Source of the DNA: Streptomyces sp. 11x1 | GTDB taxonomy: Bacteria > Actinomycetota > Actinomycetes > Streptomycetales > Streptomycetaceae | DNA length: 64,000 nt | Assembly (NCBI RefSeq): GCF_032598905.1 | Contig: NZ_CP122458.1 | Span: forward strand, 372,001 to 436,000 | Reading direction: 5' to 3' | Shown: positions 17,681 through 32,237 of the stretch, in pieces | How positions within the stretch are numbered: the first letter of the stretch is position 1 | How the letters are laid out: each line of letters starts with the position of its first letter | Notes under the pieces: generated by a model | The model's database searches: none | The model's input: only the letters and a program-made list of their open reading frames with translations | What the model was told of the DNA's origin: nothing | Translations under genes and position numbers: made by a program

Positions 17681-19432
17681 TCAGGTTCCCAGGGTTCGCC
17701 AGGACTTCAGCCGGGGTATCTCGCGCTGGTCGAGGTAGTGCTGGAAGGCAGTCGGTCGGCGGGACGTGGGTGCTTCTTCGGCCGGTGGCAGTCCGCTGAG
17801 GCGCTCGATGTTGACGGCAATGGCCGTCAGAACGTGCTGGATGTGGGCCTTTCCTTGTCCTCGGTAGCGGCAGCGCCGCATGCCGTGTCCGTGGGCGAAC
17901 TCGTTGACCGTGCCCTCCACTCCCGAGCGGACCGCATAGCGGGTCTTCCACTCGGGCGTCTGTTGCTCCGCGCGGACGCGAAGTTGCAGGTCACGGAGTT
18001 CTCGCGGGGGAAAGCCCACGGTTCGGGCGCTGTCGGCGGTGGAGGTGCACTGGGTGCGGGCCGGGCAGGGACGGCACTGACTCTTGGTGAACCTGGCCAC
18101 GATCAGCGGGGCCGCGGTGGGTGACGAGGTTGGGTAAGGGCCGTGCCAGCCCGCACTGACCTGCCCCTGGGGGCACGTGACCTGCTGACGGTCGTAGTCG
18201 ATGTGGAAGTCGTCCCGGGCGAAGCCCTCGTTCTGCCGGTGTTGGCGGGTGGGGTTGCTCCGCAGCGGCCCGGAGACGGTGACCTGGTGTTCACGGGTGG
18301 CCTGTTCGAGGTGGGGCAGGGACGTGTAGCCGGCGTCGACCAGATGCTCGGCGGGCAGCAGCCCGCGCCGCGCCAGACGGGTGTGGATGCCGGGCAGGAC
18401 CTGACTGTCGTGGGTGGTGGCCGCGGTGGTGGCCACGTCCGTGATCACGTTGGGGCCGTCGGGGGCACAGGTCTCCGTCAGATGAGCGGCGAACCCCTTC
18501 CAGCTGATGATGTGCCCGTGCCTCGCATAGCGGGCCGAGGTGTCGTAGGGCGAGACGACTGCCCGGGACGAGGGCGGCTGCCCGGGTCCGCCTTCCTTCT
18601 CGGCGGTGCGCCAGCGCAGCCGGCCTGCCTGGTCACGGTGGTAGTTCTGCACCATGATCTGGCGCAGGGCCTGGACGCGAGGGCCGGACGTGCGGCCTGC
18701 TCCGCGCCGGTAGAGGTGTTCCAGGAGCCGGACGGCATCGTTCCCGGTGGCCAGGATCCTGGTCGTGGGCTTGGTGGGGTTCTTGCCCAGGCGGACCGGC
18801 CGACCGTAGCGGCGGCCCCACTCCTCATCGACCAGCTCGTCCAGCAGGTGAGGGGACATACCGGCGACTTCTTCGAGTGCGGCGCGGACCGCCTCGGTGA
18901 CCAGCTCCAGGCGGGTCAGGTCGCGCACCGCGGCCAGGACGTGGGTGGAGTCGGTGCGCTGCGTGGTGCGCTCGCGCACCAGTCCGGCCTCCGTGAGGCG
19001 GGCCAGCGCGAGGTCGAGGAGGCGATCAGCGCGGTCGCCTTCGGCGAGACGGTCTCGGAAGTCGGCCAGCACGCTGTGGTGGAACCCGGGATCGTCCAGT
19101 TCCATCGCCATGGCGTACTTGAAGTCGATGCGACAGCGGACCGCCTCGGCGGCCTGCCGGTCCGACAGGCCGAGCAGGAACTGCAGCACACAGACGGTGG
19201 CCAGTTGAGCAGGCGAGAGCCCCGGGCGCCCATCCCGCGGGTACCAGTCGGCGAAGTCCTCGTCGCACCACAGCCCATCGAGGCGATCGCGTACCCATAT
19301 CGCCGTCGTACCGCCCGGATTGCTCGCCCGCGCGATCTGCGCGGTCAGAGAGGGGACTTGCTCACCGGAACGAGGGCGAAGGGACAACGGGCACCTCGAC
19401 AACTGCATCGGTCGACGGAACCACCCGAGCAT
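17681..19432 (-). CDS. IS1182-family transposase
   Basis: A 583-residue transposase. The N-terminal DUF772-type region includes [38 protein letters not shown] and [11 protein letters not shown]. The DDE-type core shows [30 protein letters not shown] with LVDAGYTS, and [25 protein letters not shown] near the end. The length and order fit the IS1182 family, and there is no frame break, so the element may still be active. The ATG at 19432 lies 31 bases inside the right inverted repeat. Confidence 0.9.
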
Positions 19433-20950: not shown

Positions 20951-21675
20951 CTACCTGACCGTCGCCAACGCGTCGTAGGAGCCGTACGGGTCGCTGCCGT
21001 ACGAGCGCAGCGCCCCGGTGTCGGTGGACAGCACGGCCGTGTCGGGGTGCGCGGTGCGCCACTACTTCCACGTCGTCCACACCAGCGGGACGGTGTCCAG
21101 CTTCGTGCCCTTCAGCGGGCCGCTCATCGCCTGTCCGAGCAGTTGGGGCCACTGTGAGCCGGTCTGCCGGTCGTACATCAGCAGGTTGGAGTTGACAAGC
21201 TTGCCGGTGATGCCGAACGTCAGGTCCTGGACGCTGGGCGGGGCGGAAGAGCTGATGACCGTGCCGGTCAGCGGGCAGTAGGTGACCGCGAGCGGCTGGC
21301 CGCCGACGGTGTCGTTGACGATCTCGTGCCACACCAGCACCATCTGCGGGTACGCCCTCACCTCACCCCGGTGCTCCAGCCCGAAGACCGGATCGCCGTC
21401 GGAGAGGAAGCCCGCCTGGCTCGCGGTGACGAAGCGGGGCCGGTCGATGGAGGGGATGCCGTCCTTGCCCGGGCCGCCGGACACGGCCGCCGCAGCGAGT
21501 GCTTCAAGGGACGGATCCTGCCCCGGCTGCACGGCCGTCACCCGTTCGGCCAACCCGAGAAGGTCTGCCAGCCGATCACGCCGCCGCCGACGAGCACTAC
21601 GGTGGCCACACCGATCGCGCCGGCGCCCTTGAGGGCCTGCCGCCTGCCCCGGTGGGGAGAATTTCGGCCATTCAC
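20951..21675 (-). pseudogene. DUF3179 protein with frameshift and premature stop
   Basis: The complement starts at a GTG (21675) after GGGAGGTCCAAG with VNGRNSPHRGRRQALKGAGA and a membrane segment, IGVATVVLVGGGVIGW. A frame change near 21560 leads into the body: IPSIDRPRFVTASQAGFLSD, VLVWHEIVNDTVGGQPLAVT, YCPLTGTVISS. At 21062-21064 a TAG interrupts VWTTWK-stop-WRTAHPDTAVLSTDTG; the same frame then runs to ALATVR and a stop at 20951. The family usually extends further, so the C terminus is also short. Two lesions and a truncation make this a decayed gene. DUF3179 has no established function. Confidence 0.7.
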
Positions 21676-21817
21676 CTTGGACCTCCCGAAGCGGTCCGGG
21701 ACCACGGCCCCCGCCGCAGCGGAGACCGCCGGCTACCACGATCGTGCCAGGACGCGGCTGGCGGTTCGGTGAGCGCGCTTACAGTTCTCCCCGCCCCCGG
21801 GCACCTACCGTCGGGGC

Positions 21818-22273
21818 ATGGTGCTCAGGATCGTGCTCGGGACGCTGTACACGGCGATGGCCGTCGGCCAGCTCGCCTCCTTCGAGCACATGCCGCGGAT
21901 CCTGTCCGCGTACGGGCTGGTGTCCGGCAGTGCCGCGACCGGGCTGGCCGCGGCGCTGATCGCGGGGGAGCTGGTGTGCGGGGTCTGGTTCCTGGCCCGT
22001 CCCCGCTCGACGGCCCTGGCGCCGGTGTGGGTGTACACGGCCGTCTCGGTGGTGTGGACGGTGCTGGCCGTGCAGGCGTACGCGCGGGGCCTGGTGGTGG
22101 ACAACTGCGGCTGCTTCGGCATCTACCTCACGCAGCGGCTGAACTGGTTCGTGCTGCTCCAGGACGCGGCGACCTTGCTGTACGCCGGCCCGCTGGTCCG
22201 CTCCGCCCGCCGGGCGCCCGCCCCTTCACCCGCTGGCCGAGAGGAGGCGAGCGGTGATGTCCGCGTCCCGTGA
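21818..22273 (+). CDS. MauE/DoxX-like membrane protein
   Basis: A 151-residue protein with about four membrane segments, beginning MVLRIVLGTLYTAMAVGQLA. It has a conserved-looking NCGCFG motif between segments three and four. MauE-type proteins are membrane redox partners in maturation of disulfide-rich enzymes, and the paired Cys fit that. No good ribosome site precedes the ATG, so a leaderless transcript is possible. Its end overlaps the next gene, making it the first gene of the radical SAM operon. Confidence 0.72.
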   Translation: MVLRIVLGTLYTAMAVGQLASFEHMPRILSAYGLVSGSAATGLAAALIAGELVCGVWFLARPRSTALAPVWVYTAVSVVWTVLAVQAYARGLVVDNCGCFGIYLTQRLNWFVLLQDAATLLYAGPLVRSARRAPAPSPAGREEASGDVRVP

Positions 22274-22574
22274 ACGGTCCGGGCTCGGCGGCATGGCCGC
22301 GGTGGTGGGTGCCGGGCTGGTGATGGTGGTGTGCTGCGCGGGCCCGCTGCTCGTGGCCGGCGGAGCACTCGGCGCCGTCGGCGGGGCGCTGGGCCATCCC
22401 TGGCTGATCACCGTCGGTGCGGTCGTACTGCTCGCCGGCACCGGCTACGCCCTGCACTGCCGGGCCCGCCGACGCCGGGGCGCCGGGGCGGAGGACTGCT
22501 GCCCGGCCGCCCCAGCCGAGCCCCGGCCGAACGAACACGTTGATGTAGCCGATCCGGGCGGCGATGTCCGCTGA
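22254..22574 (+). CDS. Small Cys-rich membrane protein, MerT-like
   Basis: A 106-residue protein with two or three membrane segments. The first contains MVVCCAGPLLVAGGALGAVG, resembling the vicinal-Cys first helix of mercuric transport proteins (SSCCVLP). A further Cys pair, DCCPAAP, lies in the hydrophilic tail. The GTG at 22254 has GGAGG six bases upstream; the ATG at 22257 is nearly as good. It overlaps the MauE-like gene and precedes the radical SAM gene by 31 bases. Handling of a soft metal or thiol relay at the membrane is inference. Confidence 0.6.
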   Translation: MMSASRERSGLGGMAAVVGAGLVMVVCCAGPLLVAGGALGAVGGALGHPWLITVGAVVLLAGTGYALHCRARRRRGAGAEDCCPAAPAEPRPNEHVDVADPGGDVR

Positions 22575-22605
22575 ACGCAAGCCCCCATGGAAGAGGAGTT
22601 CTTCG

Positions 22606-24180
22606 ATGACCCAGGCACCCGCGCCCCGCTGCAAGACCGACAGCGACGAGGTGTTCGTGGAGTTCACCAAGTCCATCTGCCCGCTGTGCAAGACCCCCGT
22701 CGACGCGCAGGTCAACATCCGCAACGACAAGGTCTATCTGCGCAAACGCTGCGGTGAGCACGGCGAGTTCGAGGCACTGGTCTACGGGGACGCCGAGGAG
22801 TACCTGTCCTCGGCACGCTTCAACAAGCCCGGCACGATTCCGCTCGTCTTCCAGACCGAGGTGAAGGACGGCTGCCCCAGTGACTGCGGGCTGTGCCCGG
22901 AGCACAAGCAGCACGCCTGCCTGGGCATCATCGAGGTCAACACCGGCTGCAACCTGGACTGCCCGATCTGCTTCGCCGACTCCGGCCACCAGAGCGACGG
23001 CTACTCCATCACCCACGAGCAGTGCGAGCGGATGCTCGACGCCTTCGTGGCCTCCGAGGGCGAGGCGGAGGTGGTGATGTTCTCCGGCGGCGAGCCCACC
23101 ATCCACAAGCACATCCTCGACTTCATCGACCTCGCCCAGACCCGCCCGATCAAGAACGTCAACCTCAACACCAACGGCATCCGCCTGGCCACCGACAAGA
23201 ACTTCGTCGCCGAACTCGGCAAGCGCAACCGGGTGCCGGGCCGGTCGGTGAACATCTACTTGCAGTTCGACGGCTTCGACGAGCGCACGCACCTGGAGAT
23301 CCGGGGCCGGGACCTGCGCACGTTCAAGCAGCGGGCCCTGGACAACTGCGCCGAGGCAGGGCTGACCGTCACCCTCGTCGCGGCCGTCGAGCGCGGGCTG
23401 AACGAGCACGAGCTCGGGGCGATCATCGAGTACGGCATCGACCACCCCGCGGTCCGCTCGGTGGCGTTCCAGCCGGTCACCCACTCGGGCCGGCACGTGG
23501 AGTTCGACCCGCTGAACCGGCTCACCAACCCCGACGTCATCCGCCTCATCAACGCCCAACGCCCGGAATGGTTCACCAAGGGCGACTTCTTCCCCGTCCC
23601 GTGCTGCTTCCCCACCTGCCGCTCCATCACCTACCTCCTCGTCGACGGCGAACCGGGCAACCGCACCGTCGTTCCCATCCCCCGGCTGCTCAACGTCGAG
23701 GACTACCTGGACTACGTCACCAACCGGGTCATGCCCGACGCCGGGATCCGCGAAGCCCTGGAGAAACTGTGGTCGGCCTCCGCATTCATGGGCACCGCCA
23801 CGACCGAGGAAAAGCTGCGGGCCACCGCCGAGGCACTGGACTGCGCGGACGCCTGCGGCATCGACCTCCCGGAAGCGGTAAAGAACTTGACTGACAAGGC
23901 GTTCATGATCGTCGTTCAGGACTTCCAGGACCCCTACACCCTCAACGTCAAGCAGCTGATGAAGTGCTGCGTCGAGGAGATCACCCCCGACGGCCGCCTC
24001 ATCCCCTTCTGCGCCTACAACTCCGTCGGCTACCGCGAACAGGTCCGCGCGCAGATGTCCGGTGTCCCCGTCGCCCCGGTCGCGCCCAACGCGCTGCCGC
24101 TCGCCGGCCGTCTGACGGCGACCCCGTACGGCTCGAAGACCGCCAGCAGCTCGGACGAGGAAGGAAAGCTCTCGTCATGA
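22606..24180 (+). CDS. Radical SAM protein of the Tes (MJ0619-like) family
   Basis: A 524-residue enzyme. An N-terminal rubredoxin-like zinc motif (CPLC, residues 25-28) is followed by a Cys-rich stretch GCPSDCGLCPEHKQHACLG (Cys 90, 94, 97 and 105). Then comes the radical SAM CxxxCxxC motif GCNLDCPICFA (Cys 115, 119 and 122) and the SAM-binding MFSGGEPTIHKH. A late Cys cluster, VPCCFPTCRS, and a final CCVEEITPDGRLIPFC suggest additional iron-sulfur centres. This layout is that of tetraether synthase relatives that join unactivated carbons. The bacterial substrate is unknown. AGGAG lies seven bases before the ATG, and the stop overlaps the methyltransferase start. Confidence 0.85.
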   Translation: MTQAPAPRCKTDSDEVFVEFTKSICPLCKTPVDAQVNIRNDKVYLRKRCGEHGEFEALVYGDAEEYLSSARFNKPGTIPLVFQTEVKDGCPSDCGLCPEHKQHACLGIIEVNTGCNLDCPICFADSGHQSDGYSITHEQCERMLDAFVASEGEAEVVMFSGGEPTIHKHILDFIDLAQTRPIKNVNLNTNGIRLATDKNFVAELGKRNRVPGRSVNIYLQFDGFDERTHLEIRGRDLRTFKQRALDNCAEAGLTVTLVAAVERGLNEHELGAIIEYGIDHPAVRSVAFQPVTHSGRHVEFDPLNRLTNPDVIRLINAQRPEWFTKGDFFPVPCCFPTCRSITYLLVDGEPGNRTVVPIPRLLNVEDYLDYVTNRVMPDAGIREALEKLWSASAFMGTATTEEKLRATAEALDCADACGIDLPEAVKNLTDKAFMIVVQDFQDPYTLNVKQLMKCCVEEITPDGRLIPFCAYNSVGYREQVRAQMSGVPVAPVAPNALPLAGRLTATPYGSKTASSSDEEGKLSS

Positions 24181-24977
24181 ACCAGCCCAGCGGCGAGGAG
24201 CTGAAGGCGTGCTGCGCCGCCGCGTACTCCTCCGACATCGTCGCCCTGCTCCTCGGCGAGTCCTACCACCCTGGCGGCACCGCCCTGACCCGCCGCCTCG
24301 CCGACGGCCTCGGCCTGACCCCGGGTGCGCTGGTCCTCGACGTCGCCTCGGGGCGCGGCACCACCGCCCTGCTGCTGGCCGACGCGTACGGCATTGAGGT
24401 CGACGGGGTGGACTACGCACCGGCGAACACCGCCCTGGCCCAGGGTGCCGCCCAGGCCGCCGGCCTCGCAGATCGGGTGCGGTTCACCACCGGAGACGCC
24501 GAACACCTGCCGTATCCGGAGGGTGTCTTCGACGCCGTGGTGTGCGAGTGCGCCCTGTGCACCTTCCCGGACAAGGCGCGCGCGGCGGCCGAGTTCGCCC
24601 GTGTCCTTCGCCCGGGCGGGCGCCTCGGCATCACCGACGTCACCATCGATCCCACCCGGCTGCCGGCCGAGCTCAGCGGCCTCGGCGCCCGGATCGCCTG
24701 CATCGCCGACGCCCGGCCGCTCCAGGACTACACCGAGATCCTGGCCGGCGCGGGCCTGCGCACACTCCGCACCGAGCGCCACAATCAGGCGATGCTGCGG
24801 ATGATCGACCAGATTGAGGCGAGGCTGAACCTGCTGCCCATGACCGCCCCCGCCCGCCTCACCGCAGCAGGCGTCGACCTCGACGCCGCCCCCGCCGTCC
24901 TGGAAGCCGCCCGGGCCGCGGTCACCGACGGCGTCCTCGGCTACGCGCTGCTCATCGCCGAACGCACCCCGGACTAG
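24177..24977 (+). CDS. Class I SAM-dependent methyltransferase coupled to the radical SAM enzyme
   Basis: A 266-residue methyltransferase with motif I VLDVASGRGTTALLLADAYG, motif II around TTGDAEHLPYPEGVFDAVVC and VLRPGGRLGITDV. Cys residues near the N terminus (LKACCAAAYSSD) and in CECALC are unusual and recall metalloid methyltransferases that bind a thiophilic substrate. The ATG overlaps the radical SAM stop (ATGA), so the two enzymes are made together and probably act on one substrate. No substrate can be named from sequence. Confidence 0.82.
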   Translation: MNQPSGEELKACCAAAYSSDIVALLLGESYHPGGTALTRRLADGLGLTPGALVLDVASGRGTTALLLADAYGIEVDGVDYAPANTALAQGAAQAAGLADRVRFTTGDAEHLPYPEGVFDAVVCECALCTFPDKARAAAEFARVLRPGGRLGITDVTIDPTRLPAELSGLGARIACIADARPLQDYTEILAGAGLRTLRTERHNQAMLRMIDQIEARLNLLPMTAPARLTAAGVDLDAAPAVLEAARAAVTDGVLGYALLIAERTPD

Positions 24978-25967: not shown

Positions 25968-26468
25968 ATGAATGGGACGATCACCATGACCACGGCATCA
26001 CACATCTCCTCCAAGACCGCTGCGATCCCGGTGCACGCCGTCTGGGGCGCTGCGGCCGGCCTCGTCGGCGGCGTCGGCATGGGCATCTGGATGTCGGTCT
26101 CCCGGCCCGTCATGGACACCGCGATGATCACGATGGTGGCCGGGCTGCTGGGCTCGACCAACGCCTTCGCCGGCTGGCTGATCCACCTGTCCATCGCGCT
26201 GTTCGCCGGTGCCACCTTCGGCATCGTGCTCGGCCACCTCGCGCAGCGCCTGGCACCCGCCATCGTCCTCGGCCTGGCCTATGGCGTGGTGTGGTGGGCC
26301 ATCGGCGCGCTGTGGATCATGCCCGCCAACATGGGCATGCCGGTCTTCGAGTGGAACGACATCACCTCCTCCAGCCTCGGCGCCCACCTCGTGTTCGGCC
26401 TGCTCGCCGGCGCCACGTTCGCGTGCATCGCCCAGGCGATGGGCAAGCGCACCGGCCCGGCCCGATGA
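25968..26468 (+). CDS. Four-segment membrane protein (YagU/DUF1440-like)
   Basis: A 166-residue protein with about four membrane segments: AVWGAAAGLVGGVGMGIWMS, TMVAGLLGSTNAFAGWLIHL, LAPAIVLGLAYGVVWWAIGA and LVFGLLAGATFACIAQAMG. The pattern resembles YagU-type inner membrane proteins. Its role is unknown. The ATG at 25968 has AGGAG eight bases upstream; an internal ATG at residue 7 is an alternative. Its stop overlaps an ATG in frame with the downstream Crp gene. Confidence 0.65.
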   Translation: MNGTITMTTASHISSKTAAIPVHAVWGAAAGLVGGVGMGIWMSVSRPVMDTAMITMVAGLLGSTNAFAGWLIHLSIALFAGATFGIVLGHLAQRLAPAIVLGLAYGVVWWAIGALWIMPANMGMPVFEWNDITSSSLGAHLVFGLLAGATFACIAQAMGKRTGPAR

Positions 26469-26653: not shown

Positions 26654-27373
26654 ATGACCGACGCCGCAGCCCGAGGCGAGGAAGCGGAGCGGACCTGGTG
26701 CCTGGCCGAGGTCGACATCTTCTGCGACCTGTCCGAGCAGGAGATGGAGGCCATCGCCGCCGCGGCACCGATGAAGACCTACCACGCGGGCGAGATCCTC
26801 TACTCGCCCACCCAGCCCTCCGAAGTGCTGTTCATCCTCAAGAAGGGCCGGGTCCGCGTCTTCCGAGTCTCCGCCGACGGCCGCGCGCTGACCACCGCGA
26901 TCATCTCCCCGGGCACCATCTTCGGCGAAATGGTCCTGCTCGGACAGCACATGTACGACAACTACGCCGAAGCCCTCGACGACACCGTCGTGTGCGTGAT
27001 GAGCCGCACGGACGTCCATCGGCTGCTGCTGGCCGACGCGCGGATCGCCGCCCGGATCACCGCGATCCTCGGCCGCCGCCTGGCCGACCTCGAACAGCGC
27101 CTGTCCGACAGCGTGTTCAAGACCGTCGCCCAGCGCATCGCCACCACACTGACCACCCTGACCAGCGCCCAGCCCCCGGCAGGCCCCCTGCGCCCGGTCG
27201 GACGCCACCCGCAGATCGCCCTCACCCACGAACAGCTCGCCGCCCTCGCCGGCACCTCCCGCGAAACCTGCACCAAGGTCCTGCGCGACTACGCCGACCA
27301 CGGCCTGCTCCGCCTGGCCCGCGGACGCATCAGCGTCCTCGACCCCGAACGGCTCAAGGACGCCGCCGGCTGA
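26654..27373 (+). CDS. Crp/Fnr-family transcriptional regulator
   Basis: A 239-residue regulator. A cyclic-nucleotide-binding-like domain spans about residues 15-130 (IFCDLSEQEMEAIAAAAPMK, SPGTIFGEMVLLGQ) and a winged helix follows (ALTHEQLAALAGTSRETCTK). There is no N-terminal Cys cluster for an Fnr iron-sulfur centre. GAGGAG lies nine bases before the chosen ATG. The frame is open back to an ATG at 26465 that overlaps the previous stop; the extra 63 residues could be a leader or an N-terminal extension. It probably controls the TlpA-CcdA genes downstream. Confidence 0.85.
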   Translation: MTDAAARGEEAERTWCLAEVDIFCDLSEQEMEAIAAAAPMKTYHAGEILYSPTQPSEVLFILKKGRVRVFRVSADGRALTTAIISPGTIFGEMVLLGQHMYDNYAEALDDTVVCVMSRTDVHRLLLADARIAARITAILGRRLADLEQRLSDSVFKTVAQRIATTLTTLTSAQPPAGPLRPVGRHPQIALTHEQLAALAGTSRETCTKVLRDYADHGLLRLARGRISVLDPERLKDAAG

Positions 27374-27463: not shown

Positions 27464-28042
27464 TTGCGCGCCCGCACCCTCCTCCCGGCCGCCCTTCTCA
27501 CTGTGACCGCATGCGGCTCGGGCGGTGGCTCCGCGCCGGCCGGCGACGAGGGGACCTCCCCCTCGAAGCCTTCTTCCCCCGCCCAGTCACCCACCGACTC
27601 CCACGACAGCGGCAGCGGGTCACAGGGCGCGAAGGCCCCCGAGGCTCTGAACTTCTCTGCGACCACTGTGGACGGCAAGCCGTTCGACGCGAAGACCCTC
27701 GCGGGCAAGCCCACCGTGCTGTGGTTCTGGGCACCCTGGTGCCCCACCTGCAAGGGCCAGGCCGCCGAGACGGCCAAGGTCGCCGCCAACCAGCACGGCA
27801 AGGCGAACGTCGTCGGCGTCGCGGGCCTGGACAAGAACGCCGCCATGCGCGCCTTCGTCTCCGACACCGGCACCGACTCCTTCCCCCACCTCTCCGACGA
27901 AAAGGGCGAAGTGTGGAAGCGGTTCAAGATCACCCAGCAGAGCTACTACGTGATCCTCGACCAGACCGGAAAGACCGTCTACGAGGGCGTGCTCCCCGGC
28001 GGCAAGGGCCTGGCGGAGAAGGTCGCCGCCCTCACCGGCTGA
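27464..28042 (+). CDS. TlpA/thioredoxin-like lipoprotein
   Basis: A 192-residue exported thioredoxin-fold protein. The signal peptide MRARTLLPAALLTVTAC ends in a lipobox with Cys17, followed by a Ser/Pro/Gly-rich linker to about residue 55. The active site WAPWCPTCKGQ carries both redox Cys. It would reduce or isomerise disulfides outside the membrane. The start is a TTG at 27464 with AGGAG six bases upstream. It is followed seven bases later by ccdA, the membrane electron donor for such proteins. Confidence 0.88.
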   Translation: MRARTLLPAALLTVTACGSGGGSAPAGDEGTSPSKPSSPAQSPTDSHDSGSGSQGAKAPEALNFSATTVDGKPFDAKTLAGKPTVLWFWAPWCPTCKGQAAETAKVAANQHGKANVVGVAGLDKNAAMRAFVSDTGTDSFPHLSDEKGEVWKRFKITQQSYYVILDQTGKTVYEGVLPGGKGLAEKVAALTG

Positions 28043-28049
28043 CCCCGCC

Positions 28050-28914
28050 ATGGCCGACCTGCCCCTCGCCCTCGCCCTCGGCGCCGGGATGCTCGCCGCC
28101 GTCAACCCGTGCGGCTTCGCCCTGCTCCCCGCCTACCTCTCCCTGCTCGTCCTCGGCGACGACAGCCCCAGCCGTACCGTCGCCGTCGGCCGGGCGCTCG
28201 CCGCCACCGCCGCGATGACCGCGGGCTTCGCCACCTTCTTCGGCGTCTTCGGACTCCTCATCCAGCCCGTCGCCGGCCAGATCCAGCAGCACCTGCCCTG
28301 GTTCACCATCGTCCTCGGCCTGCTCATCGCCACGGCCGGAGCATGGCTCCTCGCAGGCCGCCAACTGTCCACCTTCGCCCCGAAACTCCGCCGTGCCCCC
28401 ACCGTCACGCGATCCGTGCCCTCGATGGCACTGTTCGGTACGGCGTATGCCACCGCCTCCCTCGGCTGCACCATCGCCCCGTTCCTCGCCATCGTCGTCT
28501 CCGCCTTTCGCAGCGGCTCCACCACGGAAGGCATCCTCCTCTTCGCTGCCTACGCCGCCGGGATGGGCCTGATCGTCGGCGTAGCCTCCCTGACCGTCGC
28601 CCTCACCCGCACCACCGCCGTCACCCGGCTGCGCCGCCTCGGCGCGATCGCCCCCCCGGCTCGGCGGCGGTCTGCTCCTCCTGGTCGGCGCCTACGTCGC
28701 CTACTACGGCTGGTACGAGATCCGCGCCCTGCACAACCCCACCACCAACGACCCCGTCATCGACACGGCGGCCACCGTCCAGCGAGCCGTTGCCGACACC
28801 CTGGACACCGCCGGTCCGGCCGTGATCGCCGTACTCTTCGCCCTCCTGCTCCTCGCCACATTGGTCATCCGGCGCCGCAAGCGCACGAGCCGGCACACCG
28901 GCTTCCAACCGTGA
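28050..28914 (+). pseudogene. ccdA: Cytochrome c biogenesis protein CcdA, frameshifted at a run of seven C
   Basis: The first 200 residues are a clear CcdA: MADLPLALALGAGMLAAVNP with the NPCGFALLPAYLS motif and the second Cys in ASLGCTIAPFLA. After TRLRRLGAIA, a run of seven C (28651-28657) shifts the frame. In the next frame the protein continues LGGGLLLLVGAYVAYYGWYE and AVIAVLFALLLLATLVIRRR to a stop at 28914. Removing one C restores a single frame of about 287 residues. The lesion may be a true frameshift, slippage-based variation or a sequencing error. It would pass electrons from cytosolic thioredoxin to the TlpA-like lipoprotein. Confidence 0.8.
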
Positions 28915-29920: not shown

Positions 29921-31429
29921 TCAGTGGCTGGCGGCGAGTTCGCCGCTGAGCTTGCCGTGCAGGTGGGCACTGGGGTCGTTCAGGCCGGTGATCTCCACGG
30001 TCTTGCCGCGCTGGGCGTACTTGGTCTCGATGGCGTCGAGGGCGGCGACGGAGGAGGCGTCCCAGATGTGTGCGGCAGACAGGTCGATGACGACCTTGTC
30101 CGGATCGCCCGTGTAGTCGAATTGGCCGACGAGGTCGTTGGAGGAGGCGAAGAACAGCTCGCCGGTGACCCGGTACACGACCGTGCTGCCGTCTGGGTCG
30201 ACCGCGGCGGTGACCTCGGCGAGGTGGGCGACGCGCCTGGCGAAGACGACCATGGCCGTGATCGAGCCGACGACGACGCCGACGGCAAGGTTGTGCGTGG
30301 CCACGACACACGCGACGGTGATCACCATGACGGCGATCTCGCCGGCCGGCATCCGCTTGAGGGTCTTGGGGGCGATGGAGTGCCAGTCGAAGGTCGCGAA
30401 CGACACCATGATCATGACGGCGACCAGGGCGGCCATGGGGATGTCGGAGACGACCGGCCCGAAGGCGATGCACAGCACCATCAGGAACGCGCCCGCGAGG
30501 AAGGTCGACAGGCGGGTGCGGGCGCCGGACACCTTCACGTTGATCATCGTCTGGCCGATCATGGCACAGCCGCCCATGCCGCCGAAGAAGCCGGTGACGA
30601 TGTTGGCGATGCCCTGGCCGATGGACTCGCGGGTCTTGTCGGAGTGGGTGTCGGTGATGTCATCGACCAGCTTGGCGGTCATCAGCGACTCCATCAGGCC
30701 GACCAGAGCCATCGCGAAGGCGTACGGGGCGATCGTCGTCAGCGTGTCGAGCGTGAACGGCACGTCGGGCAGACCCGGCACGGGTAGGGAGGACGGCAGG
30801 GCGCCCTTGTCGCCCACCGTCGGTACCGCGATGGCCGCACCGACGGTGATTACGGTCAGGATGACGATGGACACGAGCGGGGCGGGGATCACCGTGGTGA
30901 TCTTCGGGAAGAACACCATCAGCGCCAGCCCGCCGATGATCAGCGGATAGACGGCCCACGGGACGCCTGTCATCTCGGGGAACTGGGCCATGAAGATCAG
31001 GATGGCGAGGGCGTTGACGAAGCCGACCATCACGCTGCGGGGGATGAACCGCATCAGCTTCGCCACCCCGAGTGCGCCCAGGATGACCTGGAAGACGCCA
31101 GCGAGGATGACGGCGGCGATCAGGTAGCCCAGGCCGTGCTCGCGGTTGAGCGGGGCGATGACCAGAGCGATAGCGCCGGTGGCGGCGGAGATCATCGCTC
31201 GGCGTCCGCCGACGACGGAGATGACCACGGCCATGGTGAAGGAGGCGAACAGGCCGACTGCGGGGTCGACGCCGGCGATGATCGAGAAGGAGATCGCCTC
31301 GGGGATCAGCGCCAGGGCGACGACCAGGCCCGCGAGGACCTCGGTGCGCCAGACCTTCGGGTTGTTCAGCCAGTCGGGCCTCAGGCCGCGCAGGCGCGCG
31401 GCCGGGGACACAGCGGTAGCGGAAGACAA
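29921..31429 (-). CDS. SulP-family anion permease with STAS domain
   Basis: About 502 residues. The transport part begins [20 protein letters not shown] and includes the family signature region [20 protein letters not shown], with ten or more membrane segments. The C-terminal STAS domain shows [20 protein letters not shown]. It would carry sulfate, bicarbonate or a dicarboxylate; substrate cannot be read. The start is uncertain: a TTG at 31429 with AGG upstream is chosen, while a GTG at 31411 is possible and the frame is open to 31591. It is divergent from the MerR gene at 31827, with a palindrome between them. Confidence 0.82.
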
Positions 31430-31749
31430 GAGTTCAGGAACCTGTCGTGCTCGGGCACACCCCCATGGCAGGCCGGGGATGTGCGGGAGGACGCGGAGGG
31501 GCCGGGCCGGCACCCCGCGGACGGCCCCGTCAGCGCGGAGCCGGAAGACCAGAGGGAACGGAGCAGGCAGGCGCGAGGGCGCCGGGCTCACATTCGGGGG
31601 CGAAGCGTCACGGCGGGCAAGCAGCGGCGCCGGGCGTCATGGGCTCGCGCACGCTTCTCTCCTGCAAGAATCGGATCTTCGCTGGGGGCGGCATCGACCC
31701 CGGAACGGCAGCAGCGGGGGCAGCCGGGCCGCCCTCACCTCCATCAACT

Positions 31750-31769: not shown

Positions 31770-31826
31770 ATATTGGCGGTCCCGCTCAGGAGGCACTGCC
31801 GTGAGGGAAAGGCCAGGAGCAGGGAC

Positions 31827-32237
31827 GTGGACGGCAAGCACATGCAGATCGGCGAGGTCGCCGCGCGCACCGAGCTGTCCCTGCGCACCATCCGGCACTA
31901 CGAGGAGACCGGTCTCGTAGTCCCCTCCGCCCGCTCCCAAGGCGGGTTCCGGCTCTACACCGACAACGACGTGGCCCGGCTCATGGTCATCCGGCGGATG
32001 AAGCCGCTCGGCTTCACGCTGGACCAGATGCGCGACCTGCTGGACGCCGCCGACCGCCTTGACGCCGGTGACGAACTCGGACCGGATGAGCGCGAGGTGC
32101 TCCTTCAGCGCGTGCGCGAGTACGAGCAGAGCGCGGCGGAGCAGGTGGAGAAGCTGCGTGTCCAGCTCGCCCGCGCCGAGGACTTCGCCGCCACACTGCG
32201 GGCACGGCTGCCCGAGCACGAGCCGGTGCGCCCCTGA
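31827..32237 (+). CDS. MerR-family transcriptional regulator
   Basis: A 136-residue regulator. The helix-turn-helix and wing are MQIGEVAARTELSLRTIRHY and EETGLVVPSARSQGGFRLYT, followed by MKPLGFTLDQMRDLL and a coiled-coil dimerisation helix. There are no Cys ligands, so a metal sensor is unlikely. The GTG start at 31827 has AGGAG seven bases upstream. It probably binds the palindrome upstream and controls itself and perhaps SulP. The sequence after its stop merges into a transposase remnant on the other strand. Confidence 0.85.
   Translation: MDGKHMQIGEVAARTELSLRTIRHYEETGLVVPSARSQGGFRLYTDNDVARLMVIRRMKPLGFTLDQMRDLLDAADRLDAGDELGPDEREVLLQRVREYEQSAAEQVEKLRVQLARAEDFAATLRARLPEHEPVRP

Follow-up and report, generated by a model that had tools for sequence, protein, structure and literature searches.

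In Streptomyces sp. 11x1, a coupled operon of four genes lies at positions 21818-24977 of a 64,000-nucleotide stretch of contig NZ_CP122458.1, which is called the window throughout. The conserved unit is not this quartet but the pair formed by two of its products, a radical S-adenosylmethionine (SAM) protein, here abbreviated rSAM, and a class I methyltransferase (MT). The pair is associated with genes of the type found in mercury-resistance (mer) loci and carries conserved cysteines; it is read here, with a confidence just short of even, as a module of two enzymes acting on a thiophilic metal or metalloid, probably mercury-associated, which would be taken up or sensed by the mer-type genes. 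The ArsM-type cysteines of the MT, the homologues of merA-adjacent proteins and the thiol-redox partners point to the handling of a soft metal(loid) rather than of membrane lipids. A first-pass annotation of the window had proposed a coupled set of MauE-like, MerT-like, Tes-like radical SAM and Cys-bearing methyltransferase genes with a lipid, a metalloid or a small natural product as possible substrate. That interpretation is partly supported; among its substrates a soft metal or metalloid is now favored and a lipid disfavored. The operon consists of the following genes.

21818-22273, + strand: MauE-like membrane protein, 151 amino acids (PF07291, E 4.8e-13, 50 bits, cut-off 27)
22257-22574, + strand: small membrane protein with paired cysteines (CC protein), MerT/MerF-like by homology to merA-adjacent Streptomyces proteins, 105 amino acids
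22606-24180, + strand: Tes/TrsS-related radical SAM protein (rSAM), 524 amino acids (PF04055, PF23545)
24177-24977, + strand: class I methyltransferase (MT) of the DVU_1556/ArsM kind, 266 amino acids (NCBIfam; conserved C12, C13, C125, C175)

The coupling proposed at first pass is borne out, as the four frames overlap or nearly touch: the CC gene starts within the MauE-like gene (22257 versus an end at 22273), and the MT start shares the rSAM stop in an ATGA overlap at 24177-24180. The rSAM start is taken as 22606, which a purine-rich stretch precedes; an alternative in-frame ATG at 22564 would overlap the CC gene. Against 400 kb of Streptomyces DNA taken as a control (20 stretches of 20 kb), none of the four proteins has a match at 1e-3.

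Distribution of the rSAM-MT pair

Relatives were gathered by a scan of GTDB genome contigs, in which the best 80 of 258 stretches encoding relatives were used together with the hits from the genus, and were mapped by tblastn. The rSAM query gave 92 loci (designated L; genomes are designated G). After exclusion of L002, an unrelated radical SAM protein, 91 remained, of which 87 are distinct; four duplicate named Streptomyces records without any difference in the part compared (L003 equals L015, L004 equals L023, L007 equals L034 and L012 equals L076), the window's own locus, L001, being counted among the 87. MT adjoins rSAM in 86 of the 87 distinct actinobacterial loci (90 of 91 with duplicates). 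The sole miss, L011 in genome G097, is a broken rSAM gene between MauE and CRP genes, from which the C-terminal part and MT have been lost. MauE is present in 46 of the 87 (49 of 91), all from Streptomyces save L059, a short locus from a Micromonosporaceae metagenome-assembled genome, where the MauE gene is divergent. The CC protein stands directly in the operon in 19 distinct loci (22 of 91), always with MauE and only in Streptomyces; at L071, from Kribbella, a related CC protein is found elsewhere in the locus and not in the operon. The complete four-gene set likewise occurs in 19 of the 87 distinct loci, all from Streptomyces. The neighborhood analysis across actinomycetes that the first-pass annotation had suggested thus finds the quartet to recur, so that it is not absent elsewhere. 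As a unit, however, the quartet gives way to the commoner rSAM-MT core.

In the wider set, an MT is adjacent to 102 of 112 rSAM-like hits. The ten others are L011, L104 (where rSAM continues past a contig end), L098, L099, L107-L110, L112 and L111, whose MT is on the other side. The rSAM gene is unevenly distributed: at E <= 1e-40 it was found in 10 of the 150 genomes sampled from the genus, once as the broken copy of G097, and at 1e-30 in 13 of 296 from the phylum, where some of the hits belong to other subfamilies.

Adjacent rSAM and MT genes also occur on haloarchaeal plasmids of Haloarcula, Salinirubellus, Halorarius and Halalkalicoccus. Five records supply six such loci. Two of the six (L094, L141) are near-copies on one Haloarcula halophila plasmid, where the whole neighborhood of the pair is present twice. 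Among the matches listed, the haloarchaeal rSAMs are 29.7-33.0% identical to the window rSAM, and a protein search with the Haloarcula rSAM (best 120 of 3167 matches) gave members in Halobellus, Halorientalis, Haloplanus and Natronomonas. In the available text of Zeng et al., Tes homologues are reported in 20 Halobacteria genomes without glycerol dialkyl glycerol tetraethers (GDGT), and their function is left open (PMC8941075). The haloarchaeal relatives listed here are probably the same proteins; close relatives of the haloarchaeal rSAM occur in Halobellus and Halorientalis, genera named in that text. Save for Zeng's homologues, the literature searched leaves the pair undescribed in actinobacteria and haloarchaea. 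The first-pass claim that the set is undescribed in Streptomyces is therefore probably right, provisionally so, as subscription papers fell mostly outside that literature.

Relationships and conserved cysteines of the two proteins

Judged by curated cut-offs, the window rSAM is not a member of Tes (NF045702; 329 bits, cut-off 450) and is equally close to TrsS (NF045646; 335.6 bits, cut-off 490), which NCBIfam names a "radical SAM (seleno)protein" and which is a radical SAM selenoprotein according to the available part of a 2026 review (PMC13188914). The haloarchaeal rSAMs of L093 and L096 reach 337.5 and 352.5 bits against TrsS. The Tes-like label given at first pass holds for the type of protein and for its Cys-rich layout, without extending to membership of the Tes family by curated cut-off. 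The best PDB match is 7tol, that is, Tes (MJ0619), with 276 bits, and the likeness extends to the domain layout, the ligand patterns of three metal sites and the C-terminal CC and PFC motifs. As given in the available text of Lloyd et al., Tes has a rubredoxin-type site C-X2-C-X20-C-X2-H, an N-terminal cluster with three Cys and a radical SAM CX3CX2C motif (PMC9433317). The window residues C25-C28-C49-H52, C90-C94-C97 and C115-C119-C122 match these patterns, and the Cys and His at the three sites are invariant in an alignment of 36 sequences (the window and 35 others). Unlike Tes, the window rSAM has an MT partner and further invariant cysteines, C105, C140, C333, C334, C413 and C417, opposite which Tes has no Cys when aligned by phmmer; its family is moreover present in haloarchaea reported without GDGT. 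The AlphaFold model of rSAM is poor (predicted local distance difference test, pLDDT, 61.3) and was not used.

A single clade of MT-adjacent rSAMs was rejected, since a 31-row tree requires two changes, with L110 and L111 among them on long branches; hence no single origin is claimed. A separate group of this tree holds five MT-less rows (L098, L107, L108, L109, L112), some of them Lgt-linked. Tes/TrsS-like rSAM genes beside or near Lgt-type genes, partly annotated as such and partly recognized by eye, were seen at L098, L099, L108 and L112, on Mycobacterium and Persicobacter plasmids and in other actinobacteria, and are possibly a separate lipid-linked subfamily. The radical SAM frames of L111 and L108 each contain one internal TGA, possibly selenocysteine. 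In L013 of Streptomyces flavidovirens, CC protein and rSAM read as one 626-residue frame (P0001), either a fusion or a run-on; P0001 and P0002 were dropped as CC-rSAM fusions because run-on frames could explain both.

The window MT scores 139.9 bits against the DVU_1556 family (NF045667; cut-off 155) and, as second-best NCBIfam family, 92.9 bits against ArsM (NF008823), far below the cut-off of 263. Its cysteines C125 and C175, which confirm the Cys-bearing methyltransferase of the first-pass annotation, are Cys in 103 of 103 MT rows (the window and 102 others, at least five of them duplicates) and align with Cys columns of both ArsM references, the Adhaeribacter and Halomicrococcus arsenite methyltransferases; in a realignment with hidden Markov models (HMMs), 102 of the 103 rows have both. 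Of 15 other MTs encoded by this DNA, a single one carries Cys at the first position and not one carries both, most being unaligned at the second. C12 and C13, present in 95 and 96 of the 103 rows, align with the N-terminal SCC of ArsM. In CmArsM, Cys72, Cys174 and Cys224 are given as the As(III) ligands in the available text of PMC12608789. By alignment, C125 and C175 probably correspond to Cys174 and Cys224 and are predicted metal(loid) ligands of the MT.

Among named systems, the window pair is filed with TrsS and the DVU_1556-family MT, in which the same two kinds of protein are adjacent. The MT of the more distant pair L105 exceeds the DVU_1556 cut-off with 162.4 bits, as does that of L111 with 209.9, the latter keeping the EC and C-x-x-x-A-R cysteines; distant actinobacterial members thereby bridge to the named family. 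Both window proteins, however, remain below the cut-offs of this kind, the DVU_1553-family CoA ligase of L111 was not recognized as a partner here, and the partners are instead mer-type, DUF3179 and thiol-redox genes. Another resemblance is to ArsM with ArsS or ArsL, where a radical SAM protein is likewise paired with a metalloid-type MT bearing conserved cysteines; here the best families of rSAM, TrsS and Tes, and the low ArsM score of MT mark the difference.

Mercury-type and thiol-redox neighbors

The CC protein of the window carries CC in its first hydrophobic stretch and DCC after the second. It has no Pfam or NCBIfam match at 0.01, MerT and MerF included, so that the MerT-like label of the first-pass annotation has no family match behind it; what holds is homology to proteins adjacent to merA. 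The regions of seven of the eight Streptomyces merA genes over the cut-off were read (L164, L166, L168, L170, L172 with two, and L173), and a CC protein accompanies five of the seven, at L164, L166, L170 and both genes of L172. Identity between the window protein and its counterparts at these five genuine merA genes, in four loci, is 42-52%, and an HMM built from merA-adjacent CC proteins gives the window protein 70 bits, with no match in the 400 kb control. The scanned merA-adjacent CC proteins are likewise below the MerT and MerF cut-offs, as is the Kribbella homologue, whose match to MerT is weak (E 7.7e-5 and 2.2e-6).

For four of these five merA genes, an ArsR-type gene separates the CC gene from the divergent merA; that of L164 is confirmed by Pfam, and L164 also has a genuine MerB over the cut-off and a MerR-type gene. 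The layout resembles that of Streptomyces lividans, whose mer genes are described, in the available text of the two sources, as divergent merAB/merRTP (PMC5312570) repressed by ArsR (PMC3466566). The memb, CRP and DUF427 genes of the pair neighborhoods (described below) also occur at the merA loci L164 and L170. At L069, from Amycolatopsis arida, a genuine merA scoring 551 bits (cut-off 454) is divergent from an ArsR-type gene that is followed by rSAM and MT, and the pair occupies the place where merTP would be. In Kribbella (L071), a CC protein and an ArsR-type gene lie, together with a MerA truncated where the locus ends, 5.5-6.3 kb downstream of MT, and L077 has a partial MerA at the locus edge, with 398 bits across some 70% of the model. 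An rSAM-MT pair as a mer function is unmentioned in the available portions of the Streptomyces mer literature (PMC3466566, PMC5312570).

Around the operon, the window contains the following genes.

17681-19432, - strand: long open reading frame upstream of the neighborhood, a putative insertion-sequence-type transposase by resemblance
21062-21739, - strand: truncated DUF3179 gene with in-frame TAG stops (PF11376, E 1.3e-57 over the first 135 positions)
25968-26468, + strand: "memb", a membrane protein without family assignment, repeatedly found together with the CRP gene (no Pfam match)
26654-27373, + strand: CRP/FNR-type regulator, start inferred (PF00027, PF13545)
27464-28042, + strand: TlpA/redoxin-type protein with a CPTC motif, probably a lipoprotein (PF00578, PF08534)
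28050-28600, frame continuing to 29012, + strand: 5' part of a CcdA/DsbD-type membrane protein (PF02683, 24.5 bits, just below the cut-off of 27.1)
29921-31591, - strand: SulP-type sulfate permease
31773-32237, + strand: MerR-type regulator

In several Streptomyces loci, the SulP and MerR-type genes are again both found close to the pair. The DUF3179 gene has two internal TAG codons in the whole-genome scan, and relatives possess copies without internal stops.

Partners were scored at E 1e-6 with HMMs from window, actinobacterial and haloarchaeal examples; as the seeds come partly from the counted loci, these match by construction. With this proviso, the 43 long Streptomyces loci contain MauE in 36, CRP in 30, memb in 28, DUF427 in 23, redoxin in 18, CcdA in 16, a CC-motif protein in 16, a disulfide reductase in 12, DUF3179 in 10, SulP in nine and Trx3 in eight. 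For the 29 other long actinobacterial loci, the counts are disulfide reductase 15, CRP 14 (seven weak, 38-55 bits), DUF427 10, memb seven, DUF3179 five, CC-motif protein five, redoxin three, CcdA three, SulP one and MauE none. The six haloarchaeal loci have redoxin in five, DUF3179 in four (one weak), a disulfide reductase in four (one weak), DUF547 in four, a CC-motif protein in two and memb in two (weak). DUF547 and redoxin genes are divergent beside four of the six haloarchaeal pairs, and three (L093, L096, L100) have an annotated DUF3179 gene in the vicinity. The Pfam scan of neighbors covered 135 of 181 predicted genes, with 25 of 116 families listed, so that rarer partners may be missed.

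Matches in the control DNA, from Streptomyces and haloarchaea, are few. The partner models have one SulP match in the 400 kb Streptomyces control, none being found there for the DUF3179, TlpA/CcdA and disulfide reductase models; the only other match in the controls is to a MerR2-type regulator. In 150 kb of haloarchaeal plasmid DNA (three stretches of 50 kb), neither the CC scan nor any of nine partner models gave a match. The 1.55 Mb of 111 loci encode 32 membrane proteins with the CC motif versus none in the 400 kb control, by a scan that combines a simple regular expression with a hydropathy test and misses some loci. As a separate observation, several DUF3179 genes have a CC membrane partner of their own (L096 5888-6370, L100 11578-12180, L085 8365-9033), a partnership found in Streptomyces, Saccharothrix and haloarchaea.

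Mechanism and competing explanations

In the proposed mechanism, the Streptomyces CC protein would move a metal ion across the membrane and pass it from thiol to thiol, the ion being most likely mercury and possibly organomercury or another soft element. The MT may bind the metal(loid) delivered by such mer-type proteins, or else a ligand that bears it, through C125 and C175 with assistance from C12 and C13, and methylate it, while rSAM would form or cleave a carbon bond, in the manner of ArsS and ArsL next to ArsM. The thiols would be kept in the reduced state by TlpA, CcdA, MauE and the disulfide reductases. Where a genome has no MerA, as is the case for that of the window, disposal of the imported ion would fall to the pair.

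Several findings weigh against this proposal. SAM delivers a methyl cation, and direct methylation of Hg(II) is therefore chemically unfavorable; the mercury case would need carbon chemistry in the rSAM step, or action on a ligand. With As, Sb, Se or Te as the substrate, an ArsM-like step is chemically straightforward. The fold model of the MT (pLDDT 88.9) best matches small-molecule MTs, ArsM being absent among the 50 structure matches listed, and the haloarchaeal MTs, in the rows shown, are without the N-terminal CC. The rSAM frame of haloarchaeal L100 is interrupted. At L168 and L173 (genomes G086 and G089), merA has no CC protein by motif. Nine of the 29 other long actinobacterial loci (L078, L082-L084, L086, L087, L090-L092; six from Salinispora, two from Micromonospora and one from Longimycelium) hold rSAM and MT with none of the scored partners, which weakens the claim that the partners are required. 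Finally, the 10.7 Mb assembly of the window's genome, in two contigs, has no MerA over the cut-off (best match 281 of 454 bits), the 103 loci of the family have no MerB, and the window region, unlike a Streptomyces mer operon, has neither; a canonical mercury-resistance operon is accordingly rejected.

Co-occurrence across the 150 Streptomyces genomes gives a divided picture, with p-values that are uncorrected for relatedness or for the six comparisons made, and with related loci and genomes as non-independent events, which again counts against the proposal. Genuine MerA, over the cut-off, is present in six genomes, DUF3179 in seven and rSAM in ten. DUF3179 shares four genomes with MerA (0.28 expected, p 2.5e-5) and four with rSAM (0.47 expected, p 3.3e-4), or three without the broken copy of G097 (0.42 expected, p 0.005). 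MerA and rSAM share two (0.40 expected, p 0.052); the broken copy accounts for most of this overlap, and when G097, which has no MT, is left out, one common genome remains (p 0.32). As the direct overlap is weak and DUF3179 overlaps both, the genome-wide tie to MerA runs via DUF3179 and not directly via the pair.

An unlikely but serious alternative is the biosynthesis of an organoarsenical, or of its Sb, Se or Te counterpart, in which the MT would methylate a trivalent metalloid and rSAM would add a carbon group, the mer-type neighbors merely sharing a soft-metal island with the pair. The chemistry is favorable, since As(III) is a nucleophile and can be methylated by SAM. The conserved ArsM cysteines and the rank of ArsM as second-best family of the MT agree with this alternative, as do the precedents of a radical SAM protein with ArsM, namely ArsS for arsenosugars and ArsL for arsinothricin, whose radical SAM and ArsM genes are adjacent (PMC8552651, available text). 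On the other hand, there is no link to genomes with ArsM, which is found in four of the ten rSAM genomes (2.33 expected, p 0.18), and the recognized metal genes nearby are mer-like, Ars transporters not having been specifically searched for. Arsenic as the sole element is not favored, given the missing co-occurrence with ArsM genomes.

It is quite unlikely that the pair makes a small thiol- or sulfur-bearing ligand or cofactor, such as a metal buffer or redox carrier, which the neighbors would use or recycle. Methylation of a thiol by SAM is easy, and the recurrence of TlpA/redoxin, CcdA and pyridine-nucleotide disulfide reductases is in keeping with such a product. In the Tes reaction, the substrate carbon forms a transient bond with a sulfur atom in one Fe4S4 cluster (PMC9433317, available text). 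Against this stands the operon itself, in which no conserved substrate, carrier or ligase gene was recognized; nor was the CoA ligase type of L111 recognized among the partners, no search having been aimed at this type.

The least probable of the explanations is a membrane-lipid enzyme, that is, a bacterial Tes analogue that joins or modifies fatty-acyl chains: Tes is the nearest solved structure, some rSAMs of the wider family occur near Lgt-type genes, and the synthesis of branched GDGT by bacterial Tes homologues is suggested in the available text of Zeng et al., where haloarchaea are also described as producing nothing but archaeol, and Halobacteria that possess Tes homologues as lacking GDGT (PMC8941075), but this tetraether-lipid reading is set aside because of that lack of GDGT, the score below the Tes cut-off, a partner that is an ArsM-type MT and not a lipid gene, and the separate grouping of the Lgt-linked, MT-less rows.

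The soft-metal module remains the favored reading of the pair. Its boldest extension, a long shot, is a cobalamin-independent organomercury or organometal pathway of aerobic actinobacteria and haloarchaea, in which the pair would form or cleave a carbon-metal bond on ions brought in by a mer-type transporter and would replace MerA in the genomes that have none. If true, such a pathway would give a function to the unexplained haloarchaeal Tes homologues. The rSAM family may be a soft-metal enzyme and not a lipid enzyme; since the haloarchaeal plasmid relatives read here are pairs of rSAM and MT, with a redoxin gene near most of them and DUF3179 and disulfide reductase genes near several, this question is testable. 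Caution is also advised in genome surveys: such genes should not be counted as markers of tetraether lipids. Rather, they offer a new gene pair for the handling of mercury or metalloids in soil and saline habitats.

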